Positions 3,052 to 63,950 of a DNA stretch of 64,000 nucleotides are shown one piece after another. Position 1 is the stretch's first letter, and the number at the start of each line of letters is the position of its first letter. The notes beneath the pieces were generated by a model. It saw only the letters and a list, made by a program, of their open reading frames with translations. It searched no databases and was not told the origin of the DNA. Made by a program: the position numbers and the translations under genes. Source of the stretch: Longibacter salinarum (GTDB taxonomy: Bacteria; Bacteroidota; Rhodothermia; Rhodothermales; Salinibacteraceae); NCBI RefSeq assembly GCF_002554795.1, contig NZ_PDEQ01000003.1:62001-126000 (forward strand). Reading direction: 5' to 3'.

Positions 3052-3127
3052 GATGTGAGATGTCGGATGCGAATGGAGCGTACATCCCGTTAGAAAACGT
3101 CGCGTCCCGGCGGTCCAATCTCAACTC

Positions 3128-5158: not shown

Positions 5159-5176
5159 ACACCGGTGGGGTGATTT

Positions 5177-19801: not shown

Positions 19802-19872
19802 TGTGGTGGTTAGTTTTCATCCGTTCCCGTGAACGCGTTTCGACTCTTCTTCCCTTCCGCCCCCCACGTCCG

Positions 19873-21963: not shown

Positions 21964-22128
21964 CAGCGGCAGAAAAGTCCCTCTGCATGATGGGGATGGA
22001 CCCGGCGATCATCGAGATGCTGCGCGGGCTTGACAGGTGAACCGGCATTGCTCCGAGAGAGACTCTTTTCCCTCTCTGAACGCATCCCCAACCTGCGCCA
22101 TGACCCATTCCGGATGCGACACGACCCG

Positions 22129-24714
22129 CTAATTTGCGACAGCCAGCGAGTCACGCCATGCAGCCGCCTGGTCTGGCCTGCCCCATTCATCGTAGAACTG
22201 GACGAGGTGTCGGAGGGTTTGTCGGGTGTACGGGTCGTCGGAGCTGCGCGTGCGCCGGAGTGTGGCGTGGGCGTCGTGCAGCAGTGGCTCGGCCTCGGCG
22301 TAGCGCTCCCGGGCAGCAAGGGACGCGCCCAGGAAGCTTTTTGACTCGGCGGCTTCCCAGCTTTGAGGACCGCGCTTTTCTTTGCGGATGGCGAGACTTT
22401 CGCGAAGAAGTGAATCCGCCTGACCAGGCGCCCCGGCGGCGATGAGGGCGGCGCCCAGTCCATTGAGCGCGTCAGCGACGTAGACGTGGTTGTCTGGCAC
22501 ATGCTCACGCAGACTCGTCAGAGCGGTCCGGTAGACCGGCGTGCTCGCGTCGTGCTTATCCTGGGCGCGAAGCGTGTGGCCCAGCGCCGTTCGGCTCAGC
22601 GCGATGCGGACGGCGTGCTCGGGGTAGCGGCTCTGGCGTACCTGCAGCACGGCGCGTTGCAGTTCCTCGGCTCGGTTGAGACGTCCCGATTCTCGGTATA
22701 ACTCGGCTTGATTGCTCCGGGCGACGAGGACGTACGGATGATGTTCTCCCATCACCTCCGTTCCCATCTCGAGCGCCTCACGATAGAGCGAGTCGGCAGC
22801 GGGGTAGTCGCCTTCGCGATGACGGATCTCGGCCAGGTTGGCAAGCGCGACGGGCAAAACCTCCTTTCGTTCACCGTCCAGCCGTCGCGCCATCGTAATT
22901 GTTTCGCGCAGGACCGGCCTGGCAGCGTCGTAGTCGCTTTGCGCGCGGAGAATGCCGGCCAGATTGTTGAGCGTTTCGACCATCGTTGTGCGCCGGGCGT
23001 CCGGCAAGGTGCGCCAGTACGTCAGCGCTTCACGATAGAGGCGCTCGGCCCGCTCGACCTCGTTCAGCACCTGCTGGTTGGCCCCGAGGTTGTGCAAGCT
23101 GGAGGCCAGTTGTTCAGAAGAAGCGGGGTCGTCGGTCGGGAGGGCGCGGCGCGTGGACAATGCTTCTTCGAGAAGCGGCGTGGCCTTGGCGTAGCGGCCC
23201 ATCTGTGTATACACGCGCCCGATGACAGATTGCACCTCGGCCTGGACGGCCGGCTGGTCGGCAAGCGCCTCGGTACGCTCGACGCCGCGCGCCAGCAGCT
23301 CTCGGGCGGTAATCGTGTCCCCCTGAGCGACATTGGGGTTTCCAGCTTCGAACAGGCTCGTCAGAAAAGCGGACACCTGCTCGGCCTTCTCCGCGTGCAT
23401 CTGTGCCCGGTCACGCTCGGTGGCGAGGCGGCGCGACTGCACGGTGACGGTCGTGGCATATCCAGCCAGAAGCAGTACAAGCACGGCGGCAGCGGCCACG
23501 CGCCAGCGGTTACGACGGAGGAACTTGCTTGCGCGGTATTGCCACGTGGAGGGGCGGGCCTCCACGGGCAGCCCCTCTCGGTAGCGACGCAGGTCTTCGG
23601 CAAACTCGGCAGCTGAGGCGTAGCGGCGAGACGGTTCTTTCCGAAGCGCCTTCATGATGATGCGGTCGAGGTCGCCTCGGAGGCGGCGCTTCAGGCGCGC
23701 GGGTGGAGGAAGGGGAGACGAGGACGGTTCGGGAGTGTCCGCCGTCGAGTCCCGTCGCGCGGCCGCCGTCGAGGGAGGCTCCGGGCGGGTTTCACAGATG
23801 ACTTGTTCGATGTGACTCGGCGTGCGTTTGTCGAAGCGATAGGGCCGCCGGCCCGTCAGCAGTTCGTAGAGCACGACGCCGAGCGCGTACACGTCGGTGG
23901 CCGGAGTAATTGCCTCGCCGCGCACCTGTTCGGGGGCAGCATACGCAGGCGTCATCAAAGTGCGACCCGTGCGCGTGACAGGGGCGTCCACAATCGCTTC
24001 GTCGTCCAGCAGCTTGGCAATGCCAAAGTCTAGCAGCTTCGGGGAGCCGTCGGCGGTGACGAGCATGTTGGACGGCTTGAGGTCGCGGTGGACAACGAGC
24101 GTGCGGTGCGCATGAGCAACGGCATCGGCCACCTTTTCAAAGAGCCGGAGCCGCTGATCGATAGAACAAGCGGCCTCCTCGCAGTAGCGATCCAGCCGCG
24201 TGCCGTCAACGCGCTCCATCGCAAAATAAGGGCGCCCGTCACCTGAAAGGCCGCTGTCGTAGAGGCGTGCGATGCCCGGATGCTCCAGCGAGGCCAGGAT
24301 CTGGCGCTCCGCCCGGAAGCGCTGCTCAATGTTTTCGGAGGGCAAGCCGGGCCGAATCACTTTCAGGGCAACCTCACGCTCGTGCTGGCCATCCGCACGG
24401 ACGGCGCGGTAGACGGCTCCCATGCCGCCGCGTCCGAGCAACCCGTTGAGACGGTACGGCCCGATTCGAGCATCGTCGTCGAGCGCCGCCTCGCTCCCGA
24501 ACAGGGAATCGGCCCGTTCCGCCTGTGGTATCCCCTCACTCAGAAAGCGGGAGACCTCCCCGTCGTTACCGGCCAGTAGTGATTCCACCTCCACCCTCAG
24601 GTCCTCGTCTCCAGCGCAGGCCTCGTCCAGAAACGCCTCGCGCTCTTTTCCTGCCGGACGGTCGAGCGCTTCGTCGAGGACGTCTTTCACACGATTCCAG
24701 CGGTCGGGGGTCAT
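22129..24714 (-). CDS. Transmembrane Ser/Thr protein kinase with C-terminal TPR domain
   Basis: An 861-residue kinase. Residues 1-60 carry the DRWNRVKDVLDEALD and AFLDEAC segments typical of bacterial kinases paired with ECF sigma factors. The Hanks-type kinase domain (about 85-360) has the Gly loop GRGGMGAVYRAV, the invariant Lys in VALKVI, the catalytic loop HRDLKPSN, DFGIAK and the APE motif. A basic linker precedes one membrane helix (about 415-436, AAAVLVLLLAGYA). The rest, to 861, is a run of tetratricopeptide repeats in the periplasm, for example GDYPAADSLYREALEMG. It lies 85 bp downstream of the ECF sigma gene on the same strand, so the two form an operon. In such pairs the kinase is thought to control the sigma factor or its targets. 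Confidence 0.93.
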   Translation of the reverse strand: MTPDRWNRVKDVLDEALDRPAGKEREAFLDEACAGDEDLRVEVESLLAGNDGEVSRFLSEGIPQAERADSLFGSEAALDDDARIGPYRLNGLLGRGGMGAVYRAVRADGQHEREVALKVIRPGLPSENIEQRFRAERQILASLEHPGIARLYDSGLSGDGRPYFAMERVDGTRLDRYCEEAACSIDQRLRLFEKVADAVAHAHRTLVVHRDLKPSNMLVTADGSPKLLDFGIAKLLDDEAIVDAPVTRTGRTLMTPAYAAPEQVRGEAITPATDVYALGVVLYELLTGRRPYRFDKRTPSHIEQVICETRPEPPSTAAARRDSTADTPEPSSSPLPPPARLKRRLRGDLDRIIMKALRKEPSRRYASAAEFAEDLRRYREGLPVEARPSTWQYRASKFLRRNRWRVAAAAVLVLLLAGYATTVTVQSRRLATERDRAQMHAEKAEQVSAFLTSLFEAGNPNVAQGDTITARELLARGVERTEALADQPAVQAEVQSVIGRVYTQMGRYAKATPLLEEALSTRRALPTDDPASSEQLASSLHNLGANQQVLNEVERAERLYREALTYWRTLPDARRTTMVETLNNLAGILRAQSDYDAARPVLRETITMARRLDGERKEVLPVALANLAEIRHREGDYPAADSLYREALEMGTEVMGEHHPYVLVARSNQAELYRESGRLNRAEELQRAVLQVRQSRYPEHAVRIALSRTALGHTLRAQDKHDASTPVYRTALTSLREHVPDNHVYVADALNGLGAALIAAGAPGQADSLLRESLAIRKEKRGPQSWEAAESKSFLGASLAARERYAEAEPLLHDAHATLRRTRSSDDPYTRQTLRHLVQFYDEWGRPDQAAAWRDSLAVAN

Positions 24715-24799
24715 GGCACGTGGGAATTGGGGAAATGCAGGAGTTCGGAATTGTCAGTGAGTGAAGGCGTGTACGTAGAGGCAAACGCCTGTGGCGTCA

Positions 24800-25375
24800 T
24801 CACGCCGATTCCATTCGCTTGATCTCGCGGGACAGCCAGGCTTTAGCCGTGCGCCAGTCACGCTTGACGGTGGAGGGGGAGACGTCGAGTGCGGCAGCGG
24901 TTTCCTCGATTGTCATTCCACCGAAGAAGCGGCATTCGACGATCCGACTCTGGCGCTCGTCAATGGCAGCGAGACGGTCGAGCGCCTCGTCGAGCGCAAC
25001 GAGACGATCGGCTTGCTGGTCGACAGCGATCCGGCCCTCGTCGATCGTAAGATGGGGGGCGTCCCCACCCCGCTTCTGTGCCTGCCGCTTGCGCGCGCGG
25101 TTGATCACAACCTGGCGCATCGCCCGGGCCGCCACCCCGAAAAAGTGGGAGCGGCCCTGCCAGTCCACCGCATGGTGATCGACGAGCTTGCCGTAGGCTT
25201 CGTGCACCAACGCCGTTGTGCGCAGCGTGATGTCGGGGCCTTCGCCGCGCAGTTCGAGGTGCGCCAGTCGGTGCAATTCGTCGTAGACCAGCGGCAGCAG
25301 CGCATCGAGCGCTTCACGATCCTCTTCGCGAAGACGCTCCAGCAGGTGCGTCACCGTGCTGGGAGAATTGGGCAT
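24800..25375 (-). CDS. ECF sigma factor (TIGR02999-like, paired with Ser/Thr kinase)
   Basis: A 191-residue ECF sigma factor from the ATG at 25375, where MPNSPSTVTHLLERL matches the usual family start. Region 2 shows LLPLVYDELHRLAHLELRGEG and ALVHEAYGKLVD, then WQGRSHFFGVAARAMRQVVINRARKR for -10 recognition. Region 4 shows VECRFFGGMTIEETAAALDVSPSTVKRDWRTAKAWL, a helix-turn-helix for -35 recognition. This composition matches the sigma group found next to Ser/Thr kinases in Acidobacteria, Planctomycetes and Rhodothermota. No classic anti-sigma factor is present, so control through the kinase downstream is likely. It is divergent from an S74 gene across a 441-bp region, which makes that gene a plausible target. 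Confidence 0.92.
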   Translation of the reverse strand: MPNSPSTVTHLLERLREEDREALDALLPLVYDELHRLAHLELRGEGPDITLRTTALVHEAYGKLVDHHAVDWQGRSHFFGVAARAMRQVVINRARKRQAQKRGGDAPHLTIDEGRIAVDQQADRLVALDEALDRLAAIDERQSRIVECRFFGGMTIEETAAALDVSPSTVKRDWRTAKAWLSREIKRMESA

Positions 25376-25530
25376 AGGGAGCAGCAGTGTTCTGAAAACC
25401 AGCGGAGGATTCGGGATTTCTTCGCCCATTGGCGGGGCGTACCGCGTGCGCAAACAACGAAGCGTCGGTCTCAATTGCATCCACGGTGCGACGGCTCTTC
25501 TTCCGCACAGGGCATTTTGATGCCTTCAAG

Positions 25531-25816
25531 TGTCACGATAATGTAACGAGAAGTGAAAGAGCCACGCTTCTCCGATATGCCTGACCCAGTTGACGGTGAT
25601 TTCTTGCATGTAATAGTGAGGGAGGTATCGGTTCTTCTGCACCCGTCTCTGGACGTGCAGGATGTTCATGGCGGCGAGGGGCGTTCGCTGCCTGCCGACG
25701 CCGACTCCTCGATTGCGCCATTTTTCGCACACCTCCTTTCGCGTCTCCTCGTGCACCGTGCGACCGCTCGGTGACCGTAGACGCTTCCCTTTTCTCTGGA
25801 ATGACACCGCCTCGTC
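25531..25816 (+). promoter_or_regulatory. Conserved divergent regulatory region, copy 2
   Basis: It corresponds block by block to 17714-17989, starting with tgtcacgataatgtaac and ending at gtcatgag at the S74 start codon. It lies between the ECF sigma gene start (25375) and the second S74 gene (25817). The remaining piece, 25376-25530, also matches the leader retained by the sigma-kinase remnant near 17565-17700. Shared non-coding conservation suggests a functional leader or promoter. Confidence 0.55.
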
Positions 25817-28087
25817 ATGAGTCTAGGCTATTCACGATCGACTCCGTTCCTTCTCACCGTTGCGCTTCTGACACTGGCCTTCGTTTGTCTGCCCAACGAC
25901 GCCCGCGCCCAGACGCGCGCCCTCAACGTAGACGACGCCGATGGCGACAGCCTCGTCCACGTCAACGACGACGGCGGCTTCGCGGTCTACGGCGAAAGCG
26001 GCACCGGCGCGATTCCCGCCACCGGGGCCGGCACACGGATGATGTGGTTTCCCAACAAGGCGGCCTTCCGCGCTGGAGAGGTAGACGGCACGCAGTGGGA
26101 TGATGCTAACGTCGGTGAACACTCGGTCGCGTTCGGATTGGACACGGACGCCGCCGGGGTACGATCCACAGCGATGGGGTTAGCTTCGAGTGCCAAGGGC
26201 AACGGGTCTACGGCGATGGGCAACGGGACCCTTGCCAGCGGCACCGGGGCCGTGTCAATGGGCAACCTCACCCGAGCCGAGGGGGACGAGTCTACGTCGA
26301 TGGGCGACCGGACAGAGGCCGCGACCGACCAATCCCTCTCCATCGGCCGATACAACGACGCCAACACCTCCGCCGACAACACCCTCTTCGTGGCCGGCAA
26401 CGGCTCATTCGGCAGCCGCTCCGATGCGCTGGTGCTCGACTACGACGGCAATATGACGATTGCCGGAACGCTCACGGAGAACTCCGACCGCCGCTTGAAG
26501 GAGCAGATCCAGCCGCTCAGCAGTGGCGTCCTGGCCCCTCTCGGCAAAATCGAGCCGGTGCGCTTCCGCTTCAAAGATAAGCGCACCCACCCTTCGGGCA
26601 CCCAGCTCGGCCTTATCGCGCAGGAGGTGCAGGCGCAGTTTCCCGCGCTCGTCAGCGAAGGGGCGAGCGGGTATCTCTCCGTTTCCTACTCGAAGTTCAC
26701 GGCCGTCTTGCTGAAGGGCCTTCAGGAGCAGCAAGCCGAGATCGCACGGTTAGAGGCGAAGCAGGCGAAGGTCGCGTCGCTGCGCAAGGAGAATGAGAGC
26801 ATCAAGAAGCGGCTGGCCAAACTGGAGCAGCAAGAGCAGGACGAGGCCGCATACGCAGGATGGGGCGCGTCCGCACCGCTCGGCGGCCTGCTTGCAATCT
26901 TACTGCTTGCTGGTGGTTTTGTCGCGTGGCGGCGCGTTCAAGCTCAGTCAAGTGCCAACACCCTGACAGGTCTGGTGGGGACGGGTCTGTTGGTCATCGG
27001 GGGGCTCCTGGCCGCCTCGACCGGTGAGGCCCGCGCCCAGCCGGTGCCCGTCACCGACGTCGAAAACGCCGCCGGCGTCTCGGTGCTGACGGTCTTCGAG
27101 GACGGAGGCTTTGCGGCCTACGGCGAAAGCGGCACCGGCGCGATTCCCGCCACCGGGGCCGGCACGCGGATGATGTGGCACCCCGCCAAGGCTGCCTTCC
27201 GAGTCGGCGTAGTTGGCAGGGGCTCCGAAAGTACCGGCGATGAGTGGGACGACACCAATGTTGGATTCGCCTCAATGTCCTTCGGAAATGGCACCAAAGC
27301 CAGTGGCTTCAAATCTACCGCAATGGGCGATAACACAACCGCAAGCGGTGAATCGTCTACTGCGATGGGTACGCAAACAACTGCCAGCGGTCTCAACACT
27401 ACGGCGATGGGTGAAAGAACGACCGCGACCGGGATCCGGTCCACGGCGATGGGCCTATTTACGAATGCCGCGACTGATAATTCACTCTCCATCGGCGTCT
27501 ACAACGATGCCAACCGGGGGAACGACGACAGCGACCCAAGCACAGGCCCGCTCTTCGTCGTTGGCAACGGCTCCTTTGGTAGCCGCTCCGACGCCTTGGT
27601 GCTCGACCAGAGCGGCGATCTCGAAATCAGCGGTACGCTCACCGAAAACTCCGACCGCCGTCTCAAAGAGCGGATCCAGCCACTCGGCAGCAGCATTCTC
27701 GGCAAGCTTGGTCACATTCGACCAGTACACTTCCGCTTCAAAAACGAAGCGACGCATCCTTCGGGCACCCAGGTTGGCCTCATCGCGCAGGAGGTCCAGG
27801 CGCAGTTTCCCGCGCTCGTCACTGAGGGCGCGAGCGGGTATCTCTCCGTCTCGTACTCGAAATTCACGGCGGTCTTGCTGAAGGGCCTTCAGGAGCAGCA
27901 GGCCGAGATCGATCGGTTGGAGGCGAAGGCGAACCGCATCGACCAGCTTGAAGCACGGCTCGCAAAGCTGGAGCAGCAGGACACGTCACGCCTGGCCGCA
28001 CTAGGGGGGCCGTGGTGGGCTGCGGCTCTGCTCGCCCTTGGACTGCTGGGCCTCGGCCTGTTCGTGCAACGGCAAAAGCGCGCATGA
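25817..28087 (+). CDS. Double YadA-head / peptidase-S74 polyprotein
   Basis: A 756-residue protein made of two complete units. Unit 1 (1-372): signal peptide, N-domain, 14-residue head repeats, S74 domain with SDRRLK at 223-228, coiled coil (302-340), membrane helix (355-371) and Arg372-Arg373. It is followed by a second hydrophobic stretch (383-402) ending in EARA-Q (404-408), a signal-peptidase-like site. Unit 2 (409-756) restarts with PVPVTDVENAAG, the same N-domain motif that follows the signal peptide in the other S74 proteins, then a head with STAMG repeats, an S74 domain with SDRRLK at 612-617, a coiled coil and a terminal membrane helix closing with QRQKRA. Unit 2 thus shows the ancestral single-unit ending. 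The gene looks like two consecutive genes joined by loss of the intervening stop. Confidence 0.84.
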   Translation: MSLGYSRSTPFLLTVALLTLAFVCLPNDARAQTRALNVDDADGDSLVHVNDDGGFAVYGESGTGAIPATGAGTRMMWFPNKAAFRAGEVDGTQWDDANVGEHSVAFGLDTDAAGVRSTAMGLASSAKGNGSTAMGNGTLASGTGAVSMGNLTRAEGDESTSMGDRTEAATDQSLSIGRYNDANTSADNTLFVAGNGSFGSRSDALVLDYDGNMTIAGTLTENSDRRLKEQIQPLSSGVLAPLGKIEPVRFRFKDKRTHPSGTQLGLIAQEVQAQFPALVSEGASGYLSVSYSKFTAVLLKGLQEQQAEIARLEAKQAKVASLRKENESIKKRLAKLEQQEQDEAAYAGWGASAPLGGLLAILLLAGGFVAWRRVQAQSSANTLTGLVGTGLLVIGGLLAASTGEARAQPVPVTDVENAAGVSVLTVFEDGGFAAYGESGTGAIPATGAGTRMMWHPAKAAFRVGVVGRGSESTGDEWDDTNVGFASMSFGNGTKASGFKSTAMGDNTTASGESSTAMGTQTTASGLNTTAMGERTTATGIRSTAMGLFTNAATDNSLSIGVYNDANRGNDDSDPSTGPLFVVGNGSFGSRSDALVLDQSGDLEISGTLTENSDRRLKERIQPLGSSILGKLGHIRPVHFRFKNEATHPSGTQVGLIAQEVQAQFPALVTEGASGYLSVSYSKFTAVLLKGLQEQQAEIDRLEAKANRIDQLEARLAKLEQQDTSRLAALGGPWWAAALLALGLLGLGLFVQRQKRA

Positions 28088-28208
28088 CATCGTCCAGCGC
28101 TCGTACGAACGGATAATCGCACGCCAGTGCAGACTGATACCGAAAATCTTCCTCGCCCCAACGACCCACGCCATGAACGCTCTACTAGAAAACCATCGCG
28201 ACCCAACC

Positions 28209-30677
28209 ATGTCCACGGATCGCTCTTCCCTCTTGACGTTTGCCTTCGCCGTTTTCCTCGTGTTGGCGCTCGCCCCGACCGGTGAGGCCCTCGCCCAGCC
28301 AGTGCCCGTCACCGACATCGAAAACGCCGCCGGCGACTCGGTGCAGACGGTCTTCGAGGACGGCGCTTTCGTCGCTTACGGCGATTCCTTCAACGGCACA
28401 ATTCCCGCAGAAGGAGAAGGCACACGGATGATGTGGCATCCTGCAAAAGGCGCGTTACGCGCCGGAGATGTGGACGCTACGGAATGGAACGACGCAAACA
28501 TCGGTCTATACTCAATGGCTTTCGGCTCCGACCCCATAGCCAGCGGTCCAGCTTCCACAGCAATGGGCCGAGATACGGAGGCTAGCGGCGACGAGTCCAC
28601 AGCAATGGGAAGCCTGTCGATCGCCAGTGGTGAACATTCCACGGCGATGGGTGTGAGCACGACGGCCAGCGGCGACGAGTCCACGGCGATGGGCGACGGT
28701 ACAGAAGCCAGTGGCAACTCAGCCACCGCGATGGGCGACGGTACGGAAGCCACCGCCCCCCAGTCCACGGCGATGGGCTTCGAAACGACGGCTAGCGGGA
28801 CTGATGCTACCGCGATGGGTCGTCGCGCCGAAGCCAACGGCACACATTCCACGGCGATGGGGGATAACACGATTGCGGAGACCGATCAGTCCCTATCCGT
28901 CGGCGCGTACAACGACGCCAACACCTCTCCCGACAACACCCTGTTCGTCGTCGGAAACGGCGAGGACACCATCTCCAATCCTGACGACCGTTCCGACGCG
29001 CTCGTGCTCGACCGAACCGGCAATCTCACCATCTCAGGCAGCCTCACCCAAAACTCCGACCGCCGCCTCAAGACACAGATCCGGCCGCTCGGTGCCAGCG
29101 TCCTGGCCCCCCTCGACGAGATTGAGCCGGTCCGCTTCCAGTTCAAAGACGAGCGCACCCATCCGTCGGGCGAGCAGATCGGTCTCATCGCGCAGGAGGT
29201 GCAGGCGCAGTTTCCCGCGCTCGTGAGCGAAGGGGCAAGCGGGCACCTCTCGGTCTCGTACTCGAAGTTCACCGCCGTCTTGCTGAAGGGTCTCCAGGAG
29301 CAGCAAGCGCAAATTCAAAAGCAGAAGGAGCAGATCGAGCGGCTACGTGGGCAGCAAACGCAGATCGCCGCGCTGCAGGCGGAGGTTGATGCGTTGAAGG
29401 AAGGACGATCGCAAACCGCGGGCTGGGGTCCGGCGGCAGGCGGGCTACTCGGGTTCCTACTTCTCGGCGGATGCATTGTGGCCGTCCGGCGGTGGGGCAC
29501 GCCGCACGCCGCCTCCCTGTTGGTCCTGGCAGGTATGGGGGCGCTACTCCTCGGAACCGCGCCGGCCTCGGCGCAGACGGTCACCATTCAAAACGGCGCT
29601 TCGGTGAGCGTGGAAAACGGCAGCGTCTTCGACCTCGGCACCAACACTGTACTTGTGGAAGAAGAATCCTCCGGCGCCCGGCTCACCGGCGGCACCGGCG
29701 TCGTCACCGCCACACGTACCGTCAACGCGCCCTCCAGCGTCGATGTGGCCGGCCTTGGCGCAGTCATCACCTCCAGCCAAGACCTCGGCCAGACGACGAT
29801 TGTGCGCGGCCACGCCGTGCAGACCGACAACAACAACGAGAGCATCGCGCGCTACTACGACATCCAGCCGGGACAGAATAACAGCGGCCTGGATGCGACC
29901 CTCGAGTTTACATATGTCGACGCCGAGCTCAACGGGCTGAGTGAAAGCAGCCTGGTTCTCTTCCGCTCGGAGGACGGCGGCAGCACGTACACCACGGCCG
30001 GCTACGACAGCCGCGACGCATCGGCCAACACCGTCACCCTCGGCGGCATCGACTCCTTTAGCCGCTGGACGCTTGGCGACGAAAGCCAGCCGTTGCCGGT
30101 GGAGTTGGCCGGGTTCGAGGTCACCCGCTCCGACGACAGCGTCCTGCTGCAGTGGGCAACTATCTCCGAACAACAAAACGCCGGCTTCGAGGTGCAGCGG
30201 CGCCGGGCCCACGCTCCGAATGGGAGCTGGAAGGAGATCGGCTTCGTCGAGTCGGCGGCTGCGGGAGGCACAACCACCGGGTCGGAATCCTACCGCTTTG
30301 CCGACACGGATCTCCCGTTCGAGGCCGACTCGCTCACCTATCGCCTCCGGCAGGTCGACATGGACGGGAGTGCGACGCTGAGCGACCCGATCGTCGTCGC
30401 GGTGAACGCGCCCGAGACGCTGGTCCTGCACGGTGCAGCCCCAAACCCGGTGCGCGGCCAGGCAACCCTCCGGTACGAGGTGCCGGAACAGGCGTCGGTT
30501 CGCATTGACCTGTTCGACGTGCTGGGCCGGCGGGTCACCACGCTCGTGAACCGAAAAGAGGTCGCGGGCCGGCAGAAGACGACCTTTGATGCGAGCCGCC
30601 TGTCGAGTGGGACGTACTTCGTACGCCTGCAATCCGCGGGCACGGTACGCACCGAACAGATCACCGTCGTCCGGTAG
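28209..30677 (+). CDS. YadA-head / S74 protein fused to a T9SS cargo domain
   Basis: An 822-residue protein from the ATG at 28209; the frame is open further back to 28038 over the end of the previous gene, but the signal peptide (FAFAVFLVLALAPTGEALA-Q) fits this start. The N-domain is followed by an extended head of eight 14-residue S/T-TAMG repeats (117-220), the S74 domain with SDRRLK at 283-288, a coiled coil (361-398), a membrane helix (409-426), Arg427-Arg428, a second hydrophobic stretch (435-452) and ASA-Q (453-456). Residues 457-625 form a beta-rich domain, then a strand-rich segment starting LPVELAGFEVTR, and finally a T9SS type-A sorting domain (about 735-822: APNPVRGQATL, FDVLGRRV, SSGTYFVRL). 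The C-terminal half resembles a complete T9SS cargo in itself. Confidence 0.85.
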   Translation: MSTDRSSLLTFAFAVFLVLALAPTGEALAQPVPVTDIENAAGDSVQTVFEDGAFVAYGDSFNGTIPAEGEGTRMMWHPAKGALRAGDVDATEWNDANIGLYSMAFGSDPIASGPASTAMGRDTEASGDESTAMGSLSIASGEHSTAMGVSTTASGDESTAMGDGTEASGNSATAMGDGTEATAPQSTAMGFETTASGTDATAMGRRAEANGTHSTAMGDNTIAETDQSLSVGAYNDANTSPDNTLFVVGNGEDTISNPDDRSDALVLDRTGNLTISGSLTQNSDRRLKTQIRPLGASVLAPLDEIEPVRFQFKDERTHPSGEQIGLIAQEVQAQFPALVSEGASGHLSVSYSKFTAVLLKGLQEQQAQIQKQKEQIERLRGQQTQIAALQAEVDALKEGRSQTAGWGPAAGGLLGFLLLGGCIVAVRRWGTPHAASLLVLAGMGALLLGTAPASAQTVTIQNGASVSVENGSVFDLGTNTVLVEEESSGARLTGGTGVVTATRTVNAPSSVDVAGLGAVITSSQDLGQTTIVRGHAVQTDNNNESIARYYDIQPGQNNSGLDATLEFTYVDAELNGLSESSLVLFRSEDGGSTYTTAGYDSRDASANTVTLGGIDSFSRWTLGDESQPLPVELAGFEVTRSDDSVLLQWATISEQQNAGFEVQRRRAHAPNGSWKEIGFVESAAAGGTTTGSESYRFADTDLPFEADSLTYRLRQVDMDGSATLSDPIVVAVNAPETLVLHGAAPNPVRGQATLRYEVPEQASVRIDLFDVLGRRVTTLVNRKEVAGRQKTTFDASRLSSGTYFVRLQSAGTVRTEQITVVR
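28550..28870 (+). repeat. 42-bp coding repeats of the YadA-like head
   Basis: Eight 14-codon units encode a pattern centred on S/T-T-A-M-G, followed by T-x-A-S-G. Adjacent units are alike but not identical at the DNA level. The array is longer than those in the two other S74 genes, so unit number varies between paralogues. Confidence 0.8.
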
Positions 30678-55604: not shown

Positions 55605-56021
55605 ATGCAGCGCACTGGTTACGTTTATCGCGCGGTTGTGACAGGCCTTGGAGGTGTCGGCTCATTCGCAACGAGCGTTGTGCTCGCACTCTTGGTGCTA
55701 TCAATGATTGGGGCGGGCTGCACGAGCTCGGACGAACTCACTGAATCCCAGATGCAAAAGCTGAGTCCGTTTCTTCAACAGCAAATAAATGCGGAGGGCC
55801 AGGGCTCAGACCGCATTTGGCCGGTGACGGTAAAGACAGCCTCAGTTCAGGATCTTCGCGACGCGAACCTTCCTCTTGCTACGGTGACGGAGGGGATTGT
55901 AACAGCGAGATGGACGATGAAACAGATTCGCGACGCTGCGCAGATCTCTTCCGTTTCCGCAATCTCCTCGACGGAGAACCGGCCGATGTCACCGTCGAAT
56001 TCGCCTGATTCTTCTGCCTGA
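55605..56021 (+). CDS. Stand-alone subtilase-propeptide-like lipoprotein
   Basis: A 138-residue protein from the ATG at 55605. A hydrophobic segment (about 20-36) ends in GAGC, a plausible though imperfect lipobox (Cys39). Residues 72-120 align without gaps to residues 74-122 of the subtilase encoded 19 bp downstream, with 17 of 49 identical by hand count. The preceding LTESQMQKLSPFL also matches LTAEQVAKLDGRL of that protein. The region is the protease propeptide, so this is a separate copy of the propeptide held at the membrane. It could inhibit or chaperone the protease. It ends in a Ser/Pro-rich tail and shares the transcript with the protease. Confidence 0.8.
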   Translation: MQRTGYVYRAVVTGLGGVGSFATSVVLALLVLSMIGAGCTSSDELTESQMQKLSPFLQQQINAEGQGSDRIWPVTVKTASVQDLRDANLPLATVTEGIVTARWTMKQIRDAAQISSVSAISSTENRPMSPSNSPDSSA

Positions 56022-56040
56022 CTGTCTCTAACCTGTGCGT

Positions 56041-59000
56041 ATGAAGCGATTCGCTACAGTTTTTCTACTTGTCGTTCTTGGGGTGTTCGTTGGCCTTCGC
56101 CCGGCCGCCGGTCAGGATTTGACGGCGGAGCAGGTGGCGAAGCTGGACGGTCGTCTTCGGTCCGTTGTGGCCCATGCGGTGCCCTCGGCTGGGCTGCCGC
56201 AAGACCAGGCGCCGGCGGTCGCGCCCATCACGGATGCTCGAAAGAATGCACCTGCGCGGTACCGCGTCGTGCTTCGCACGTCCGCGGGTGAGGCTCTGCG
56301 AGCAGCTGGAATGCCGATTCAGACGGCATTGTCTCGTGTCAGTACGGCACGACTAACCCCCCGACAGATGGTCGATCTCGTGCGGCGGGACGACGTGTCA
56401 GCCATCCATGCTGCAATTCAAAATGAGCCGCATAACGACGAGGCTGCGGGTCTGTCCGGGATCCGCGCGTTGAACAACGGCCGACTGAACAACACGAACT
56501 ACACGGGGGCAGGCGTTGCATCCTGCGTCATTGACAGCGGGGTCGATTTCACGCATCGCGACTTTCGCGAGATTGCAGACCCATCGAAGAGCCGCATCTT
56601 GTCGATCTGGGACCAGACGCTCTCGGCCCAGTCGGGCGAGTCTACGCCGACCTCCTACAGTTATGGCGTGGAGTACACGAAGGCCGATATTGAAGACGAG
56701 ATCGACGGGTCGCCGGCCGGATATATCCGCCAGAAGGACACATCCGGTCACGGAACGCACGTCGCCGGCACGATGGCGGGCAACGGCGGAGCCGACCCTG
56801 AAGGACGGTACGTTGGAATGGCGCCCGAGTCGTCGATGATTGTCGTTAAAACAGACTTCTCTTCGACAGGCATTATCGACGCTGCCAATTACTGCAGCAC
56901 CGTTGCGACGTCGAACGGAATGCCAGTGGTTGCAAATCTAAGCCTCGGAACGGACTACGGCCCGCACGACGGGACGCTCGATCAGGACATCGGTCTGTCC
57001 GATTGGGCGACGGCTGCTCCCGGGAGAGCGGCGATTGCGAGTGCCGGAAACAGTGCGGATAACGGGCAGCACCTGACGGGTACGATCGCTGGAGGGGCGT
57101 CGAAAACGATCGAAGTCGATATTCCGGGTACGTATGAGCCCGAACCCGGGACGAACAACGACGTGTTGGGAATCGACTTCTGGTTTGATGGAGTGCCCAA
57201 CGTCGACTTTACCGTGACGACGCCGAATGGCCATACCGGCTCCATGTCGTTCGGAAGCAACAATTCGGTCGATACGCCGGAGGGTGAGATCCAGTTTTTC
57301 CAGGGGATATCCCAGGAAAATGGAGACTACGAAGTTGTTTTCCAGCTTGCGGACGCGGAGCAAGGTACGCAAGAGTCGGACACGTTAACGGCCGGTACCC
57401 TCACGATCGAGATTACCAATAACGAGACATCCTCGGCCTCGTATCACGGCTGGCGGTACCGTGATGGTGTGGGCACCACGCTCCCTGCCGGGGACGGTGC
57501 CTTTACGATTGGTTCGCCCGGCTCCGCCCTTGAGGTGATTGCGGCCGGGTCGTACGTGCACCAGTGGGTCTGGTGCTCCGAGAGCGATGGTTGCCTTCAT
57601 ACAGTCGATCGGGGATCCCCGAATCGTGGTGACGATGTTTCTTCCTTCAGCAGTGTCGGTCCGCTGCGCAACGTTTCGCAGACAAAGCCAGACGTTGCTG
57701 CCCCGGGCGAAATGACGCCGTCGTCGTACTCCTCGGACTACTCGACGAGCGGTTTTTACGTTGCCGATGGTGGAAAGCACCGGTTCAGCAGGGGGACGAG
57801 CATGTCTGCGCCCGTCGTAGCGGGGGCGGCCGTTTTGCTGCTACAGGAAAATCCAGGGCTTACGTCCGGGCAGATTCGGGAGGCACTTCAATCTGGTGCG
57901 TCCACGGACGCGTTTACCGGATCTGTACCGAACGATACGTGGGGCTTCGGAAAGCTCGATGCGATCGGAGCAATGAACTACGTAATCGATGCCTCGGCAT
58001 CGTATTCGAGAGAGGTCATTGCGTACGACGACTGGAGCAGTAGCGAAACACCGATCTCAGCTGGGAGTGCGCCGGTGGCCGTTCGATTTGAGGCCTCTTC
58101 CTCCGGTGTGCTGAGTGGTGTACTCTTCCATACCGCCAAGAGCAACGCTGTAACCGGCCCCATCTCGGTCGAGGTTTGGTCCGACGACGGAAGTGGTTTC
58201 CCCGATCAGAAGGTGTCGCAGACGGTGACGACGCCAGCCGGTAGCGTGCAGAATTACTCGTGGAACTACGTCGATTTTGCCGGGGCCGGATTCGAACCGG
58301 AGGCCGGCACACCCTATCACATCGTTGTGTCGGCTGCATCCGGTGATGATCTCCAGTTGGTCAGTTCAACGCAATCTGTGGATGGCCGCTCGTCGATTCG
58401 TTCCGGAGGCACGTGGGACGGTGTCTCGTCTGATCTTCGGATTCGTCCCATCGTGACATCCACCGAGGTCTCGGGCCAACTTCCCGTCGAACTTTCAGGC
58501 TTCAGCGGACACGTCGATGAAGACCGGGTCATCCTTACGTGGAATACATTGTCTGAGGCGACGAACGACGGATTTGTCGTCGAACACGCACGAGAAGGCG
58601 GATCGTTTTCTCGCATCGGTTTCGTCGACGGGGCAGGGACGACGCGCGAGCGTCAGTCATACAGCTACACGACGCGAGCTTGCGACGCGGGGACGCATCG
58701 GTTCCGCCTCCGACAGGTCGATGTAGATGGCACCAGCACGCTTGGCCCGGAGACGACCGTCGTGATTGGGCTGCAGCAGCCATACGTTCTGTCACAGGTG
58801 GCACCGAATCCGGTTCGCGACCGCGCCACTCTCACGCTTGAGGTGAAGAAGCAGCAGGAGGTCCGAGCGGAGTTATTTAACGTTCTTGGCCAGCGGGTGC
58901 GCGTCCTGCATGATGGGGCGATCAACCCAGGATCCGAGCAAACGATCTCCGTGAACAGCGCCGATCTGGCCAGCGGGATTTACTTCGTGCGCGTGAAAGG

Positions 59001-59043
59001 CGAGACCTTCAGCGAAACTCGAAAATTCGTACGCGTACGGTAG
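56041..59043 (+). CDS. Secreted subtilisin-like (S8) serine protease with T9SS C-terminal domain
   Basis: A 1000-residue protease from the ATG at 56041 (a GTG two codons earlier is in frame). The signal peptide ends at PAAGQ (residue 25). Residues 27-124 form the propeptide. The S8 catalytic triad is intact: Asp165 in VIDSGVDF, His237 in GHGTHVAGT and Ser587 in RGTSMSAPVVAG. A large insertion (about 330-500) contains a proprotein-convertase-like beta-sandwich (DFWFDGVPNVDFTV) between the His and Ser motifs. Residues about 660-800 form another beta domain, followed by an LPVELSGFSGHVDEDR fibronectin-like stretch and a T9SS type-A sorting domain (APNPVRDRATL, LFNVLGQRV, SGIYFVRV). It is exported through the outer membrane. 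A propeptide-like lipoprotein lies just upstream. Confidence 0.92.
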   Translation: MKRFATVFLLVVLGVFVGLRPAAGQDLTAEQVAKLDGRLRSVVAHAVPSAGLPQDQAPAVAPITDARKNAPARYRVVLRTSAGEALRAAGMPIQTALSRVSTARLTPRQMVDLVRRDDVSAIHAAIQNEPHNDEAAGLSGIRALNNGRLNNTNYTGAGVASCVIDSGVDFTHRDFREIADPSKSRILSIWDQTLSAQSGESTPTSYSYGVEYTKADIEDEIDGSPAGYIRQKDTSGHGTHVAGTMAGNGGADPEGRYVGMAPESSMIVVKTDFSSTGIIDAANYCSTVATSNGMPVVANLSLGTDYGPHDGTLDQDIGLSDWATAAPGRAAIASAGNSADNGQHLTGTIAGGASKTIEVDIPGTYEPEPGTNNDVLGIDFWFDGVPNVDFTVTTPNGHTGSMSFGSNNSVDTPEGEIQFFQGISQENGDYEVVFQLADAEQGTQESDTLTAGTLTIEITNNETSSASYHGWRYRDGVGTTLPAGDGAFTIGSPGSALEVIAAGSYVHQWVWCSESDGCLHTVDRGSPNRGDDVSSFSSVGPLRNVSQTKPDVAAPGEMTPSSYSSDYSTSGFYVADGGKHRFSRGTSMSAPVVAGAAVLLLQENPGLTSGQIREALQSGASTDAFTGSVPNDTWGFGKLDAIGAMNYVIDASASYSREVIAYDDWSSSETPISAGSAPVAVRFEASSSGVLSGVLFHTAKSNAVTGPISVEVWSDDGSGFPDQKVSQTVTTPAGSVQNYSWNYVDFAGAGFEPEAGTPYHIVVSAASGDDLQLVSSTQSVDGRSSIRSGGTWDGVSSDLRIRPIVTSTEVSGQLPVELSGFSGHVDEDRVILTWNTLSEATNDGFVVEHAREGGSFSRIGFVDGAGTTRERQSYSYTTRACDAGTHRFRLRQVDVDGTSTLGPETTVVIGLQQPYVLSQVAPNPVRDRATLTLEVKKQQEVRAELFNVLGQRVRVLHDGAINPGSEQTISVNSADLASGIYFVRVKGETFSETRKFVRVR

Positions 59044-59376
59044 AGAGCCGTGACATGGATGCTAGCTGTCAGCATTCCCATGATGTGTTCGGATTCGCTC
59101 TTCCACGGAAAAGCCGGAGAACCGCTCGTGTGAAGAAATGCGTTATCAACGAATCGAGGTGCATTCGTGACGGAAACGTAGCGGGGTCGGTCGCATTGCT
59201 GCTTACATTCCGTTATCTTTTCTTGGTCTGGAAAGACCGTCGTCGTACCAAGGCGTCTGGGCATATCTGTCTACAAGATGTGCCAGTTCTGTTTTCCCCG
59301 TGGGAATGAGCCTCCGTCTATTGTGGCAGGGTTCGTTCTTGATCCCACTTCGTTGTCTTTTGAGCTCCCCACACCC
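59044..59376. other. Intergenic region, nothing recognised
   Basis: 333 bp between two T9SS cargo genes. The frame of the metalloprotease is open into this stretch back to 59278 but lacks export features there. No strong hairpin or repeat was found. Confidence 0.45.
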
Positions 59377-61368
59377 ATGAGCAAGATTAACGTGGTATCC
59401 CGATCGCCTTTCTGTACAGTGGTCGGTGTGATTTGCCTTCTGCTGTTGATGAGTTCTCAGGATGTTTTCGCGCAGCAACATCGACTCGCGGACTTGAAAA
59501 ATGCTCGGAAGGTCTCGAACAATATTTTACCGGATATCGAGTGGACCTGCGGGTTGACAGCAGGCGATGTGGTTGAGTCAACCTTCGTCCCACGGGCAAA
59601 GAACCAGTCGAAAGCGACGGCGACGATTAACGTCAACTACGGGCCAGGTTTTAACGCGAACCCGGACGCAAGGGATGCTTTCCAGCGCGCCGTGGATACG
59701 TGGGCTCGGCATCTTGACTCCCCGGTCGAGATTCTGATCGATGCGACGTTCGAGACCTTTGAAAATCCGGCTGTTCTCGGTGGCGCGCGTCCAGCCTACG
59801 TTCTGGGAGATGTTAATGGTGAGCAACTCGTCGTTGCCGTCAATATCCTGGAGGCGATCCGCGGGGACAACGTTGAAAACTTCGCGCCGGCTGCTGGCCA
59901 TACGTCGAACGATCCGGAGATTTTTGCATCGTTCAACGAGGGCCGTTCGGATTGGCACTTTGGTGAGGGGCCACCGCCGGCTGGTGCGATCGACTTCGAG
60001 AGTGTCATTCTGCACGAGATTGGGCACGGTCTTCAGTTCGCCTCGACGTTCTCGTACAACACAGGTTCTGGAAGTTACTCCTGCAATGGTGGCACCGGGT
60101 CTGCATGCTGGGGCTTCGGTACGGGACGGCCAAGCACGTACGACCAGCAGGTTGTCCAGTATAATCCGCAGACCGATACGGCCGTCGACATGCTTAGCTT
60201 CCAAAACGACTCACCGTCACTTGGAGATGCTCTTACCGTCGACGCAACGGAGGCAACAACGGAGCAGGTTCGATTTAGTGGTGAGCTAGCAACAGGGAAT
60301 GCGAGCCTGACGAACGGGCCGCAGCCACCCGTGCTGTATGCGCCCTCTCCGTGGCAGGGAGGATCAAGTTTGAGTCATCTCGACGAGAGCACGTACGCGG
60401 CAGGTACGGAAAATGCGCTCATGACGCCTCAGATTGGGAGTGGAGAACTTGCGCGCGAGCCGGGCCCGGTCGTGTGTGGCAGTCTACGGGACATGGGCTG
60501 GCCGCTCGGACCGGGATGTTTGGAGTACATCGCAGCTCCGCTGAATCTTACCATTTCGGCTCAGGACCTTGCGCAAGGAACGGTAGAGCTAAGCTGGTTC
60601 GTGAGTTCAACCGCGGACGTTGCTTCCTATACGGTCGAGCGTCGCGCCTTTGACGGGCCTTTTCAGAGTATAGCGACGCTTCCCGGTAACGCAGAACCCA
60701 CGTTCGAAGACTCCGGGGTTGGTCTTGGCGTCTACACATATCGACTGAAGTATGAGAAAGGCAATGGTGAAACTGGAGCCGTCGAAGAGACGCCGACCGC
60801 TCGAATTGGATTCACCGATATCGAGGGCGCTCTGGAGCGCGGAGACCTCGTGTCGACCATTACGCTCAACTGGGCCGTTCCCACATCTACGACTGGATAC
60901 GAGTATGTCGTCGAACGAACCACGGGCGCAGCAACGGTTGACTCGACATTCAAGCCGGTCGGTCGAGTAGCAAGCGCCACGGAGTTTACGGATACCGGTA
61001 TCTATCCAGCCACCTATAAGTATCGGGTCCGGGCAGTTGACGGCAGCGGAAATTCGATCACGAGCCCGAGCACGACGGTTGATATCGAGTTTAAAGGAGA
61101 TGCTTTTGTGACTGGGCCGAATCCCAATCCGATCTCGTCGGGAATGGCAGAGGCGCAACTCGTTGTCTCGACAGATGAAGCGCAAGATGTGACCGTTGGG
61201 GTGTACAATACACTCGGGCAGAAAGTCTATGACGAGCGTGTCTCGATGCGCGCGTCCTCGTCGAAAACGCTACAGATTCCCGTTGGAAATCTTGGCAGCG
61301 GCGTTTATTTCGTCCGCGTTCAGGGGGAGACATTCGCCCGGACGCAACGCATGGCGGTTACGCGCTAG
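59377..61368 (+). CDS. Secreted zinc metalloprotease with T9SS C-terminal domain
   Basis: A 663-residue protein from the ATG at 59377; the frame is open back to 59278 but the signal peptide (VVGVICLLLLMSSQDVFAQQ) fits here. The zinc-binding motif is HEIGHGLQF at residues 213-221 (His213, Glu214, His217), with FESVIL before it. A third metal ligand is not clear; the DEST and MTPQIGSGE stretches further on may complete the fold. Regions around 390-560 are two fibronectin-like domains (ELSWFVSSTADVASYTVERR; NWAVPTSTTGYEYVVERTTG). A T9SS sorting domain ends the protein (GPNPNPISSGMAEAQL, YNTLGQKVYDERV, GSGVYFVRV). It belongs to the metzincin-like secreted proteases of Bacteroidota; substrate unknown. 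Confidence 0.83.
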   Translation: MSKINVVSRSPFCTVVGVICLLLLMSSQDVFAQQHRLADLKNARKVSNNILPDIEWTCGLTAGDVVESTFVPRAKNQSKATATINVNYGPGFNANPDARDAFQRAVDTWARHLDSPVEILIDATFETFENPAVLGGARPAYVLGDVNGEQLVVAVNILEAIRGDNVENFAPAAGHTSNDPEIFASFNEGRSDWHFGEGPPPAGAIDFESVILHEIGHGLQFASTFSYNTGSGSYSCNGGTGSACWGFGTGRPSTYDQQVVQYNPQTDTAVDMLSFQNDSPSLGDALTVDATEATTEQVRFSGELATGNASLTNGPQPPVLYAPSPWQGGSSLSHLDESTYAAGTENALMTPQIGSGELAREPGPVVCGSLRDMGWPLGPGCLEYIAAPLNLTISAQDLAQGTVELSWFVSSTADVASYTVERRAFDGPFQSIATLPGNAEPTFEDSGVGLGVYTYRLKYEKGNGETGAVEETPTARIGFTDIEGALERGDLVSTITLNWAVPTSTTGYEYVVERTTGAATVDSTFKPVGRVASATEFTDTGIYPATYKYRVRAVDGSGNSITSPSTTVDIEFKGDAFVTGPNPNPISSGMAEAQLVVSTDEAQDVTVGVYNTLGQKVYDERVSMRASSSKTLQIPVGNLGSGVYFVRVQGETFARTQRMAVTR

Positions 61369-61438
61369 GCGCATTCGATTTGTCCCGATTGGTCACCGTG
61401 CGATCGTGCCGTTGGCCTGATCCTGCTGACTAGGGCTG

Positions 61439-61464
61439 CCCGGTTGAGATATCTCTCGACCGGG
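61439..61464. other. 11-bp inverted repeat without T-run
   Basis: cccggttgaga (61439-61449) pairs with tctcgaccggg (61454-61464) with one G-T step, around TATC. It sits 71 bp past the metalloprotease stop and 80 bp before the next start. Lack of a following T-tract makes it a hairpin of uncertain role rather than a classic terminator. Confidence 0.5.
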
Positions 61465-61544
61465 TATGTCTGCGGATGGCTACAACGTGGACATTCATCC
61501 CGTGAGTCGCACCTTCTGTGTTCTTCTCACTTCTCGGTCGATTC

Positions 61545-63950
61545 ATGCCGATCCCCTCGTCGTATCGACAGCTCGCGTCCACGCTGGTCGTTCTGTTGGT
61601 TTTCTTCGTGCCCGAATTATCTCACGCACAGCACGATCTTGGTCCGGCAGGTTCCAGTCTTCGGTCGCTCTATAACGCATATCAGAAATATACGTCTGCT
61701 GGAAAGTCTGCGGCATCATTTGGGGAGGGACCCGCGCTGGTTTCCGTTCACGCTGGTAGGGTCAGCGTGGAGATTGTGACCGAGGTTGGCAAGCGCTCGC
61801 GGGTCGCGGCACGCCTTCATTCGCTCGGGATGAGGGGCGTCCAGTCGAACGCCCGCCTGATTACCGGCTGGTTGCCTGTCGGGAAGCTGCCCAACGCGGT
61901 TGCAATCGATGGCGTGCATTCCATTTATCCCGCGCTGATGGTGGCGCAGTCGGGGTCGGTGACGTCGCGTGGGGTTGAGGTGATGGAGACAGAGGCGTTG
62001 AGCACCGCACTCGGAACGAGCGGCCAGGGTCTTGTCGTGGGCGTCCTCTCCGACTCGTATGACAACTACGACGGCTCCCAGCCGGGTCAGGCGACGGCGA
62101 GCGATGACGTGTCGACCGGCGATCTGCCCGGAGGCGGGCGTGTCCAGATTCTTCAGGATTCGAGCACGCCGGCGAGCGACGAGGGCCGAGCGATGATGCA
62201 GATTGTTCATGATGTCGCGCCGGGTGCGGACCTTGCCTTCCATACGGCGACGGGCGGCCGCGCAGCTTTCGCAGATGCGATCCGTAGTCTCGCTGCTTCT
62301 GGATCACGGGTCGTTGTCGATGATATTCTGTACTTAAACGAACCGGCGTATCAGGATGGGATAGTGACAAGGGCGATCGATGAGGTCGTCCGGCAGGATG
62401 ATGTCGTCTACGTAAGTGCAGCAGGCAACACGGGGCGGGACGCGTTCGAGAGCCCGTTTCGCGGGTCGGGGACCGAGGGGCCGCTCGGCGGAGAAATGCA
62501 CGATTTTGACCCGGGCCCCGATGTCGATCCTATTCAGCAGATTTCAATTTCGGACGACAGCCAGTTTCAGATCGCTTTTCAATGGTCGCAGCCTTATGCC
62601 TCTACGGGAGGTCCAGCTGCGATATCGGATCTCGAAATTTACCTCGTAGACAAGCGGGGTCGACTCCTTCCGTCTGTCCAACCGGAGCGCAGGGATAATG
62701 TCGGTGGCGACCCGTTCGAGTTTATCAACGTTCAGGATCTCAGTGTGGACGCAGATGGGGATGGCACGGACGATACGGAGTTTGGCCTCGTCATCGAGCG
62801 CATATCAGGGCCCGCACCGGAGCGAATTCGCTACGTTCCGTTCCAGCAACGGGGAGAGATATCCGTCGAGGAATACGCGACCCGTTCGCCGAGTCTGTAT
62901 GGCCACCCGAATGCTGAAAGTGCTATCACCGTGGGGGCGACGGCATGGTTCGATACGCCGGAGGCAAATGGAGATCTCACCGCCCCGCTCGTTCACACGT
63001 TCTCTGCGGTAGGGGGAACACCGGTTCTGTTCGATGCTCTCGGACAGGAGATTCCTCCGGTGGTACGGCAGAAACCGGACGTGACGGGGCCCGATGGCAC
63101 GAACACGACCTTTTTCGGTCAACCGCTCAATGATGGAGACGACTTTCCGAACTTTTTTGGCACCTCGGCCGCCGCTCCGCATGTGGCCGCCCTGGCAGCG
63201 ATTATCCGCTCTGGACGTCCAGACGCGACTGCTGAAGTTGTGAAGCGCGCCATCATTGCTTCCGCCGAAGATATCTCTAGCACCCGCGATGACGTGGAAA
63301 CGACGATTGCGGGAGAAGATGCGCAGGGATTCGACTTCTTCAGCGGCACCGGTCTGGTCAGGGGCGATCAGGTGACCGTTTCGGCCTTCCCCGTGCGCGC
63401 GTTTCAAGCACGGGCGACCGAACGTGCGCCCGGCGGACGTGTGATCGTGTCGTGGGAGGAGAAAGAGGCAGCTGGAATTGATACGTACCGTGTCGAACAG
63501 AGCTACGTCGGTCAACCGTTCAACGAGATTGCGTCGGTGCCCAGTTCGGGAGGCGGGGCGTATGAGCAGGCGATTTCGGATGTACGCCCGGGGACGCACA
63601 CCTTCCGGCTCACGTGGACCACCTCAAGCGGAGACCAGATTCGCGGACCAGAAACACAGGTCATGGTTTCCGTTAAGGGTGAGGCTGTCGTCACGAAGCA
63701 GCCGTTTCCGAATCCGACCCGCTCCTCCTTTCGACTAGAGCTGACGGCGAGTCAGTCGCAGAACGTCGTCTTGGCGATGTATGATGTGCTCGGGCGATAC
63801 ATTCGGACGGTCTATACGGGACGGTTGCGAGCAGGCCAGCCCTCACTCATTCAGGTCAATCGCGTTAGTCAGACAGCGAGCGGGCAGCACTTCATTCGCA
63901 TCATTGGGGAGACGTTCGAAACAGTGGTCCCTGTGACGGTCCTGCGGTGA
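61545..63950 (+). CDS. Secreted S8/S53-like serine protease with Glu in place of the usual His, T9SS tail
   Basis: An 801-residue protease from the ATG at 61545. The signal peptide ends at LSHAQ (residue 29). Residues about 60-135 form a propeptide with VSVEIVTEVGKRSRVAARLHSLGMRGVQ. The catalytic Asp is in VVGVLSDSYDN (Asp170). Where other S8 enzymes have HGTxVA, this one has SDEGRAMMQIVHDVAPGA (Glu213), as in the S53-like branch. The Ser is in FFGTSAAAPHVAALAA (Ser541). The C-terminal half holds a beta domain, a fibronectin-like domain with SWEEKEAAGIDTYRVEQSY and a T9SS type-A sorting domain (PFPNPTRSSFRLELT, MYDVLGRYIRTVY). The last 50 bp of the window after its stop hold nothing recognised. 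Confidence 0.87.
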   Translation: MPIPSSYRQLASTLVVLLVFFVPELSHAQHDLGPAGSSLRSLYNAYQKYTSAGKSAASFGEGPALVSVHAGRVSVEIVTEVGKRSRVAARLHSLGMRGVQSNARLITGWLPVGKLPNAVAIDGVHSIYPALMVAQSGSVTSRGVEVMETEALSTALGTSGQGLVVGVLSDSYDNYDGSQPGQATASDDVSTGDLPGGGRVQILQDSSTPASDEGRAMMQIVHDVAPGADLAFHTATGGRAAFADAIRSLAASGSRVVVDDILYLNEPAYQDGIVTRAIDEVVRQDDVVYVSAAGNTGRDAFESPFRGSGTEGPLGGEMHDFDPGPDVDPIQQISISDDSQFQIAFQWSQPYASTGGPAAISDLEIYLVDKRGRLLPSVQPERRDNVGGDPFEFINVQDLSVDADGDGTDDTEFGLVIERISGPAPERIRYVPFQQRGEISVEEYATRSPSLYGHPNAESAITVGATAWFDTPEANGDLTAPLVHTFSAVGGTPVLFDALGQEIPPVVRQKPDVTGPDGTNTTFFGQPLNDGDDFPNFFGTSAAAPHVAALAAIIRSGRPDATAEVVKRAIIASAEDISSTRDDVETTIAGEDAQGFDFFSGTGLVRGDQVTVSAFPVRAFQARATERAPGGRVIVSWEEKEAAGIDTYRVEQSYVGQPFNEIASVPSSGGGAYEQAISDVRPGTHTFRLTWTTSSGDQIRGPETQVMVSVKGEAVVTKQPFPNPTRSSFRLELTASQSQNVVLAMYDVLGRYIRTVYTGRLRAGQPSLIQVNRVSQTASGQHFIRIIGETFETVVPVTVLR

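Follow-up and report, generated by a model that had tools for sequence, protein, structure and literature searches.

In a 64,000-nucleotide stretch of the Longibacter salinarum genome (contig NZ_PDEQ01000003.1, positions 62,001 to 126,000 of the forward strand; hereafter the window), a gene for a small lipoprotein directly precedes one for a subtilase that bears a sorting domain of the type IX secretion system (T9SS). We find that the lipoprotein is homologous to the prodomain of this downstream protease and is encoded in an open reading frame with its own start and stop, both in the window and in relatives, rather than as part of the enzyme precursor, and that lipoprotein and protease recur together across many genomes. 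The likely function of the lipoprotein is that of a lipid-anchored prodomain that acts in trans to inhibit its partner subtilase during or after export.

A stand-alone lipoprotein homologous to a subtilase prodomain

Aligned without gaps, residues ~72-120 of the lipoprotein and ~74-122 of the protease share 17 identities, reproducing exactly the count (17 of 49) given in a preliminary description of this DNA; that description had also placed the 138-residue lipoprotein 19 bp from the subtilase and noted an LT-x-x-Q-x-x-KL match, and both the reading frames (Table 1) and the presence of the motif in the two proteins agree with it. Against protease residues 25-140, the mature lipoprotein reaches a Smith-Waterman score of 86, a value that none of 5000 shuffles of the protease segment reaches (mean 27.8, standard deviation 5.1, maximum 62), and the best local match across the whole protease falls at the same prodomain site. 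In a search of its own genome, the lipoprotein retrieves, besides its own entry, a paralogue encoded on contig C9 (E 8e-10) and two protease prodomains: one belongs to the subtilase immediately 3' of the paralogue (E 4e-4), the other to the window subtilase (E 1e-3). When a profile built only from nine lipoproteins is run against whole genomes, it matches the prodomain of the window protease at E 2.5e-16 and that of the paralogue at 1.7e-16. By hhalign, lipoprotein profiles match those of partner prodomains at 99.5% (E 1e-22) in one set and at 97.6% in a distant one, and in near relatives an N-terminal LT-x-x-x-x-x-KL stretch and the core are common to both proteins. These comparisons confirm that the lipoprotein is a homologue of the downstream subtilase's prodomain.

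Structural predictions point the same way. The best Foldseek matches to the AlphaFold2 model of the lipoprotein (whole-chain mean 70.1) are prodomain-bearing subtilases, namely ProN-Tk-SP (probability 0.99, E 0.06), PAM protease and CspB (rank 5). In the VIA results, rows 1-11 are all subtilase prodomains (Z 8.3-5.0), with unrelated ferredoxin-like folds from Z 5.0 downward; the CspB prodomain chain is among the best fold matches (Z 5.8). In the Foldseek list, the ORF2 complex (3wqb) comes far down, at rank 36 (E 4.2). The secondary structure elements follow one another in the same order in the model of the protease pro-region; this model is poor (mean pLDDT 42.8), and it was used for element order alone, with no docking geometry taken from it.

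The lipoprotein falls into no family described in Pfam or NCBIfam. Neither it nor the protease matches the Pfam Inhibitor_I9 profile (PF05922) at E up to 10, nor does any of 20 lipoprotein relatives at E up to 1, and hhalign against ordinary local I9 prodomains gives 22%, in the expected register. The earlier comparison with free inhibitors of I9 type thus holds for fold and register, as an analogy, and we dropped membership in Inhibitor_I9. Scans with Pfam and NCBIfam return no family that names the lipoproteins; a match to CspB_prodomain is weak and not significant (two of 20 members, best E 0.076), although it points in the same direction. A search of the lipoprotein profile against PDB sequences yields no significant match, its best row, hemagglutinin HA2 (E 0.041), being a chance hit that we rejected as a relative. 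L149 (G004:C13:34500-41000) offers another, distinct example of an I9-type protein with a lipid anchor: two tandem small lipoproteins of ~132 aa (3145-3540 and 3774-4175, both minus strand) have no subtilase nearby within the 6.5 kb read; one of them reaches the Pfam Inhibitor_I9 cut-off (24 bits), and the other resembles it.

Table 1. Features of the lipoprotein-subtilase pair, in window coordinates.
Feature	Position	Strand	Basis or remark
Lipoprotein gene, 138 aa; stand-alone prodomain homologue	55605..56021	+	ATG at 55605; sequence, profile, alignment, model
Lipoprotein signal peptide up to lipobox Cys39 (...MIGAGC)	55605..55721	+	Sequence; C39 invariant in 20 aligned relatives
Lipoprotein segment	55812..55976	+	AlphaFold2 model, fold matches, profile match
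Lipoprotein C-terminal tail past last-strand valine (residues 118-138), 21 residues	55956..56018	+	11-16 residues in 28 other relatives
Intergenic gap, 19 bp	56022..56040	+	Between lipoprotein and subtilase genes
Partner subtilase gene, 1000 aa	56041..59043	+	Open reading frame, domain scans
Subtilase pro-region, residues ~25-130, until HND motif (H131)	56113..56430	+	Homology; boundaries approximate
Peptidase_S8 catalytic domain, residues 156-635; triad Asp165, His237, Ser587	56506..57945	+	Domain match; invariant columns
T9SS C-terminal sorting domain (Por_Secre_tail), residues 922-997	58804..59031	+	Domain match

The pair recurs with T9SS-type subtilases

Profile scans assign the window subtilase to Peptidase_S8 (117 bits) and find a Por_Secre_tail (39.2 bits) in a sorting domain that matches both PF18962 and TIGR04183; the T9SS translocon protein SprA is encoded in the same genome (1714.7 bits). 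With a sorting domain and a T9SS in its genome, the protease qualifies as T9SS cargo. Its nearest solved relatives by sequence are CspB-type subtilases (4i0w, E 7e-42), and the expected catalytic triad is invariant among 26 partner proteases. The partner subtilase is the first of three T9SS-tailed genes in a run (56041-63950), which continues with a gene whose product contains a zinc-protease-like HEIGH motif (59278-61368) and with one for a second, divergent subtilase whose sorting-tail match lies below the cut-off (61518-63950). The window also encodes, at 17990-30677, three long proteins that combine YadA head repeats with Peptidase_S74 (endosialidase chaperone) domains; the last of them has a T9SS sorting tail at its end.

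Two such pairs are present in this genome, one in the window and one on contig C9. Of its nine Peptidase_S8 matches, two fall within the C9 gene, which leaves eight genes; no such lipoprotein was seen beside the other six, three of which carry ordinary Inhibitor_I9 prodomains. Genome searches covered the window's own phylum and were complemented by one contig scan with patterns from five close sequences. Within the family, seven of 27 genomes have a match at E <= 0.01, and these seven hold nine stand-alone lipoproteins, each beside a subtilase. A profile of those nine matched 25 of 394 genomes of the phylum, and a wider profile of 20 matched 30 of 244 genomes of the class; where neighbourhoods were read, matches other than lipoproteins and lipobox-end hits are the N-termini of S8 proteases. 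From these searches we assembled 29 stand-alone lipoproteins from 26 genomes and 12 families. Named records that carry the lipoprotein are metagenome-assembled genome (MAG) contigs of Salinivenus, a member of the Salinibacteraceae (Rhodothermota), and a 'Bacteroidetes' MAG labelled GSL.Bin3. Left out of the set were L075, in which the lipoprotein is split by a frameshift; G147, G205, G091, G273, G503 and G289, mainly lipobox-end matches or matches inside larger reading frames; the 33-aa fragment G477; and the truncated protease G122:C142. Protease-sized matches in G463, G484, G485 and G020:C70 lie outside the set read.

A same-strand S8 gene adjoins 27 of the 29 lipoproteins, or 24 of 26 once L085, L086 and L089, which were first recognised around proteases and so favour adjacency, are set aside; L126, one of the two without an S8 neighbour, lies near a contig end. 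The lipoprotein gene comes first in 22 of the 27 pairs and second in five (L078, 3489-3839, minus strand; L079, 3205-3555, minus; L085, 4235-4603, plus; L086, 4278-4877, plus; L129, 2826-3242, plus). Scans of 26 of the 27 partners, the contig-cut L036 being omitted, found Peptidase_S8 in all and a T9SS tail in 25; the exception is probably L127, whose C-terminus is cut off by the end of its contig.

To compare C-terminal ends, we used the last-strand valine as an anchor, a placement supported by its constant distance (45) to the catalytic-Asp motif in 24 of 27 proteases. Lipoproteins end 11-16 residues past this anchor in 28 of 29 cases, and an (H)ND-type junction lies 12-13 residues past it in 16 of the 18 proteases, out of 27, that the motif pattern scored (12 in nine, 13 in seven, 8 and 18 once each; the value of 8 belongs to the window protease and is a mis-hit of the pattern on QNE, HND itself beginning at 12). 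The lipoproteins therefore appear to stop at about the predicted prodomain cut, as a product-like inhibitor would. An acidic residue occupies the fourth tail position in 21 of the 29 lipoproteins and in 20 of the 27 prodomains of partner proteases, as against four of 11 proteases without a lipoprotein. In the Plasmodium protease SUB1 and its separate inhibitor SUB1-ProM, acids near that position are described as capping or contacting the catalytic domain, and the C-terminal tail as reaching into the active-site groove (PMC6993865). Tails also tend to be more like those of their own partners than like those of other proteases, a likeness matched in 12 of 5000 permutations (98 of 5000 outside the window's family), with relatedness not removed.

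A tree of 67 prodomains, built on 56 columns, places the lipoproteins mostly next to one another, with six changes between the two kinds of protein against 22 in shuffles. They fall into two main sets and are not shown as one clade, and starred branches force four of the six changes; one origin and several are both compatible with this topology, which neither establishes nor excludes either. Since the lipoproteins group mainly with one another and not with their own partners, the window lipoprotein is not a recent duplicate, and the earlier description of it as a copy of the propeptide survives in the sense of homology. The ratio of nonsynonymous to synonymous substitution (dN/dS, by NG86) is ~0.08-0.32 in six of seven near-relative pairs (dS was not computable for the seventh), values that point to purifying selection on the lipoproteins.

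A candidate in-trans inhibitor, weighed against its alternatives

A prodomain-like lipoprotein of this kind would dock in trans on its partner's catalytic domain, with its own C-terminal tail lying along the substrate cleft like that of a cleaved propeptide, and would thereby restrain enzyme that becomes active too early, either within the envelope, most plausibly at the periplasmic face of the outer membrane, or at the cell surface. The T9SS would meanwhile export the folded protease, whose own prodomain would be cleaved and lost. We favour this inhibitory role because the lipoprotein is homologous to the pro-region and has a prodomain fold, because it is paired with S8 proteases in both gene orders, and because the T9SS tails of the partners, the position of the C-terminus at the junction, the acid at position 4 and the signs of purifying selection all fit it; known analogues add to the case, SUB1-ProM being a proven inhibitor and the potempins of Tannerella being reported as specific ones. 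The proposal in the preliminary description of a membrane-held propeptide relative in tandem with a T9SS-exported subtilase is accordingly upheld by profiles, predicted fold, recurrent pairing and the matching C-terminal end, and the pair's probable role is to keep the cell safe from its own protease.

Several observations weigh against inhibition. The Foldseek E-values are not significant by themselves, none being <= 0.001. L131 (G254:C1:140500-148500; 2963-3406, plus strand) is an orphan, with no S8 gene within the fetched 8 kb. Many like proteases occur without a lipoprotein (L134 and ten others, giving the eleven solo proteases aligned); at L134 (G004:C5:146500-153500, 827-5617), the window's gene order of aminotransferase, subtilase and metalloprotease-like gene is kept, and the ~250 bp separating aminotransferase from subtilase hold no lipoprotein gene, a natural case of absence. 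The window lipoprotein is itself the least typical member, having the longest tail (21), no acid at position 4 and no likeness to its partner's tail. Homology, fold, pairing, conservation and the place of the C-terminus come directly from computation; from them we infer binding, inhibition, the tail's position in the cleft and the side of the membrane.

Subtilase prodomains are folding catalysts, and the lipoprotein could instead be a folding aid in trans, that is, a second, membrane-held chaperone of prodomain type for the catalytic domain in the periplasm. Such a role would suit the usual position of its gene at the front of the pair, and it has a precedent in ORF2 of Aeromonas sobria, which is described as both chaperone and inhibitor (PMC5638518). 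An obligatory folding aid is weakened, however, because all 27 partners retain a stretch alignable with prodomains (several distant ones without a significant profile score) and because like proteases, among them the syntenic one at L134, occur without the lipoprotein; we regard this role as unlikely. The lipid anchor of the relatives and the near-universal T9SS tails of the partners could also suggest a device that retains the protease at the membrane, to be exported or displayed, and has no inhibitory role, but an anchor would need neither the conserved prodomain core nor an end at the cleavage junction, and T9SS cargo carries its own sorting tail, which makes simple retention or sorting improbable. 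We give about as little credence, or slightly less, to a lipoprotein that sits outside the cell and confers immunity to protease from self or siblings rather than acting during export: the same inhibitory anatomy and the secreted or surface-bound nature of the proteases would serve it too, and sequence does not separate it from inhibition during export. That the lipoprotein is a decaying, functionless prodomain duplicate is hardly credible, for although L075 is split by a frameshift and the window member is divergent, open frames and pairing are kept across 12 families and dN/dS is well below 1.

Returning to inhibition, we see roughly even prospects for a broader proposition, namely that these lipoproteins constitute an unnamed, widespread class of dedicated safety catches for T9SS subtilases in Rhodothermota and several Bacteroidota-type lineages, re-capping enzyme that sheds its prodomain early and having tails matched to their partners; the prodomain would have become a membrane-held inhibitor because the T9SS carries folded cargo. 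To our knowledge, how T9SS exporters of folded proteases spare their own envelope has been worked out mainly in Tannerella. If the proposed role is correct, a freed, membrane-tethered relative of the prodomain, the simplest of parts, would provide a general and recurrent answer, a function would be assigned to lipoproteins so far unmatched in Pfam and NCBIfam, and the 27 pairs would offer natural candidate enzyme-inhibitor couples for studies of specificity.

Comparison with known systems

By analogy, the predicted mode of action resembles that of stand-alone propeptide inhibitors in eukaryotes, and the gene arrangement that of the Tannerella potempins. Eukaryotic mimics of subtilase propeptides include POIA1 of Pleurotus, the yeast proteinase B inhibitor, SPI-1 of Arabidopsis, TgMIC5 and SUB1-ProM of Plasmodium, the last a potent inhibitor of SUB1 whose gene lies beside subtilase genes (PMC6993865). 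Like the lipoprotein, these are small, separate gene products with a prodomain fold; they differ in being eukaryotic, and are not known to have a lipid anchor or a T9SS partner. In the bacterial pair, by comparison, the two proteins share detectable sequence homology and recur as neighbours.

The potempins of Tannerella forsythia, reported as specific inhibitors, are small lipoproteins whose genes immediately precede those of the KLIKK proteases, which have a T9SS-type C-terminal domain (PMC7296668, PMC4404884). The window pair has this order, with a lipoprotein gene directly before that of a T9SS-type protease. The likeness is one of gene arrangement; potempin folds are reportedly OB-type or cystatin-like rather than prodomains. 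The potempins are described as six lipoproteins without mutual sequence similarity, whereas the lipoproteins studied here form one prodomain-like family paired with subtilases.

Inhibitors encoded next to their proteases are also described for cysteine proteases: Spi, beside SpeB in Streptococcus, is a propeptide analogue, and the Bfi proteins, beside C10 proteases of Bacteroides fragilis, are small and predicted to be membrane-associated but resemble staphostatins rather than propeptides (PMC2873492). ORF2, the external chaperone and inhibitor of the Aeromonas sobria serine protease, is likewise encoded beside a subtilase and inhibits it with a C-terminus that reaches the catalytic site; its protease is, however, propeptide-deficient and needs ORF2 (PMC5638518), whereas the partner here has a homologous pro-region and can occur without the lipoprotein. 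The CspB-type subtilases, the closest solved relatives of the protease, supply a prodomain among the lipoprotein's best fold matches but carry it in cis, with no stand-alone lipoprotein, and a T9SS-cargo subtilase of Bergeyella is reported to have a cis propeptide unlike I9 (PMC11982257). In the open-licence PMC literature, to which the search was confined (subscription papers being outside its scope), we found no description of a bacterial pair of this kind. Relative to these systems, the novelty lies in how the features are joined: a bacterial protein carries a lipid anchor, is homologous to the prodomain of the protease encoded next to it, and is conserved alongside T9SS subtilases.

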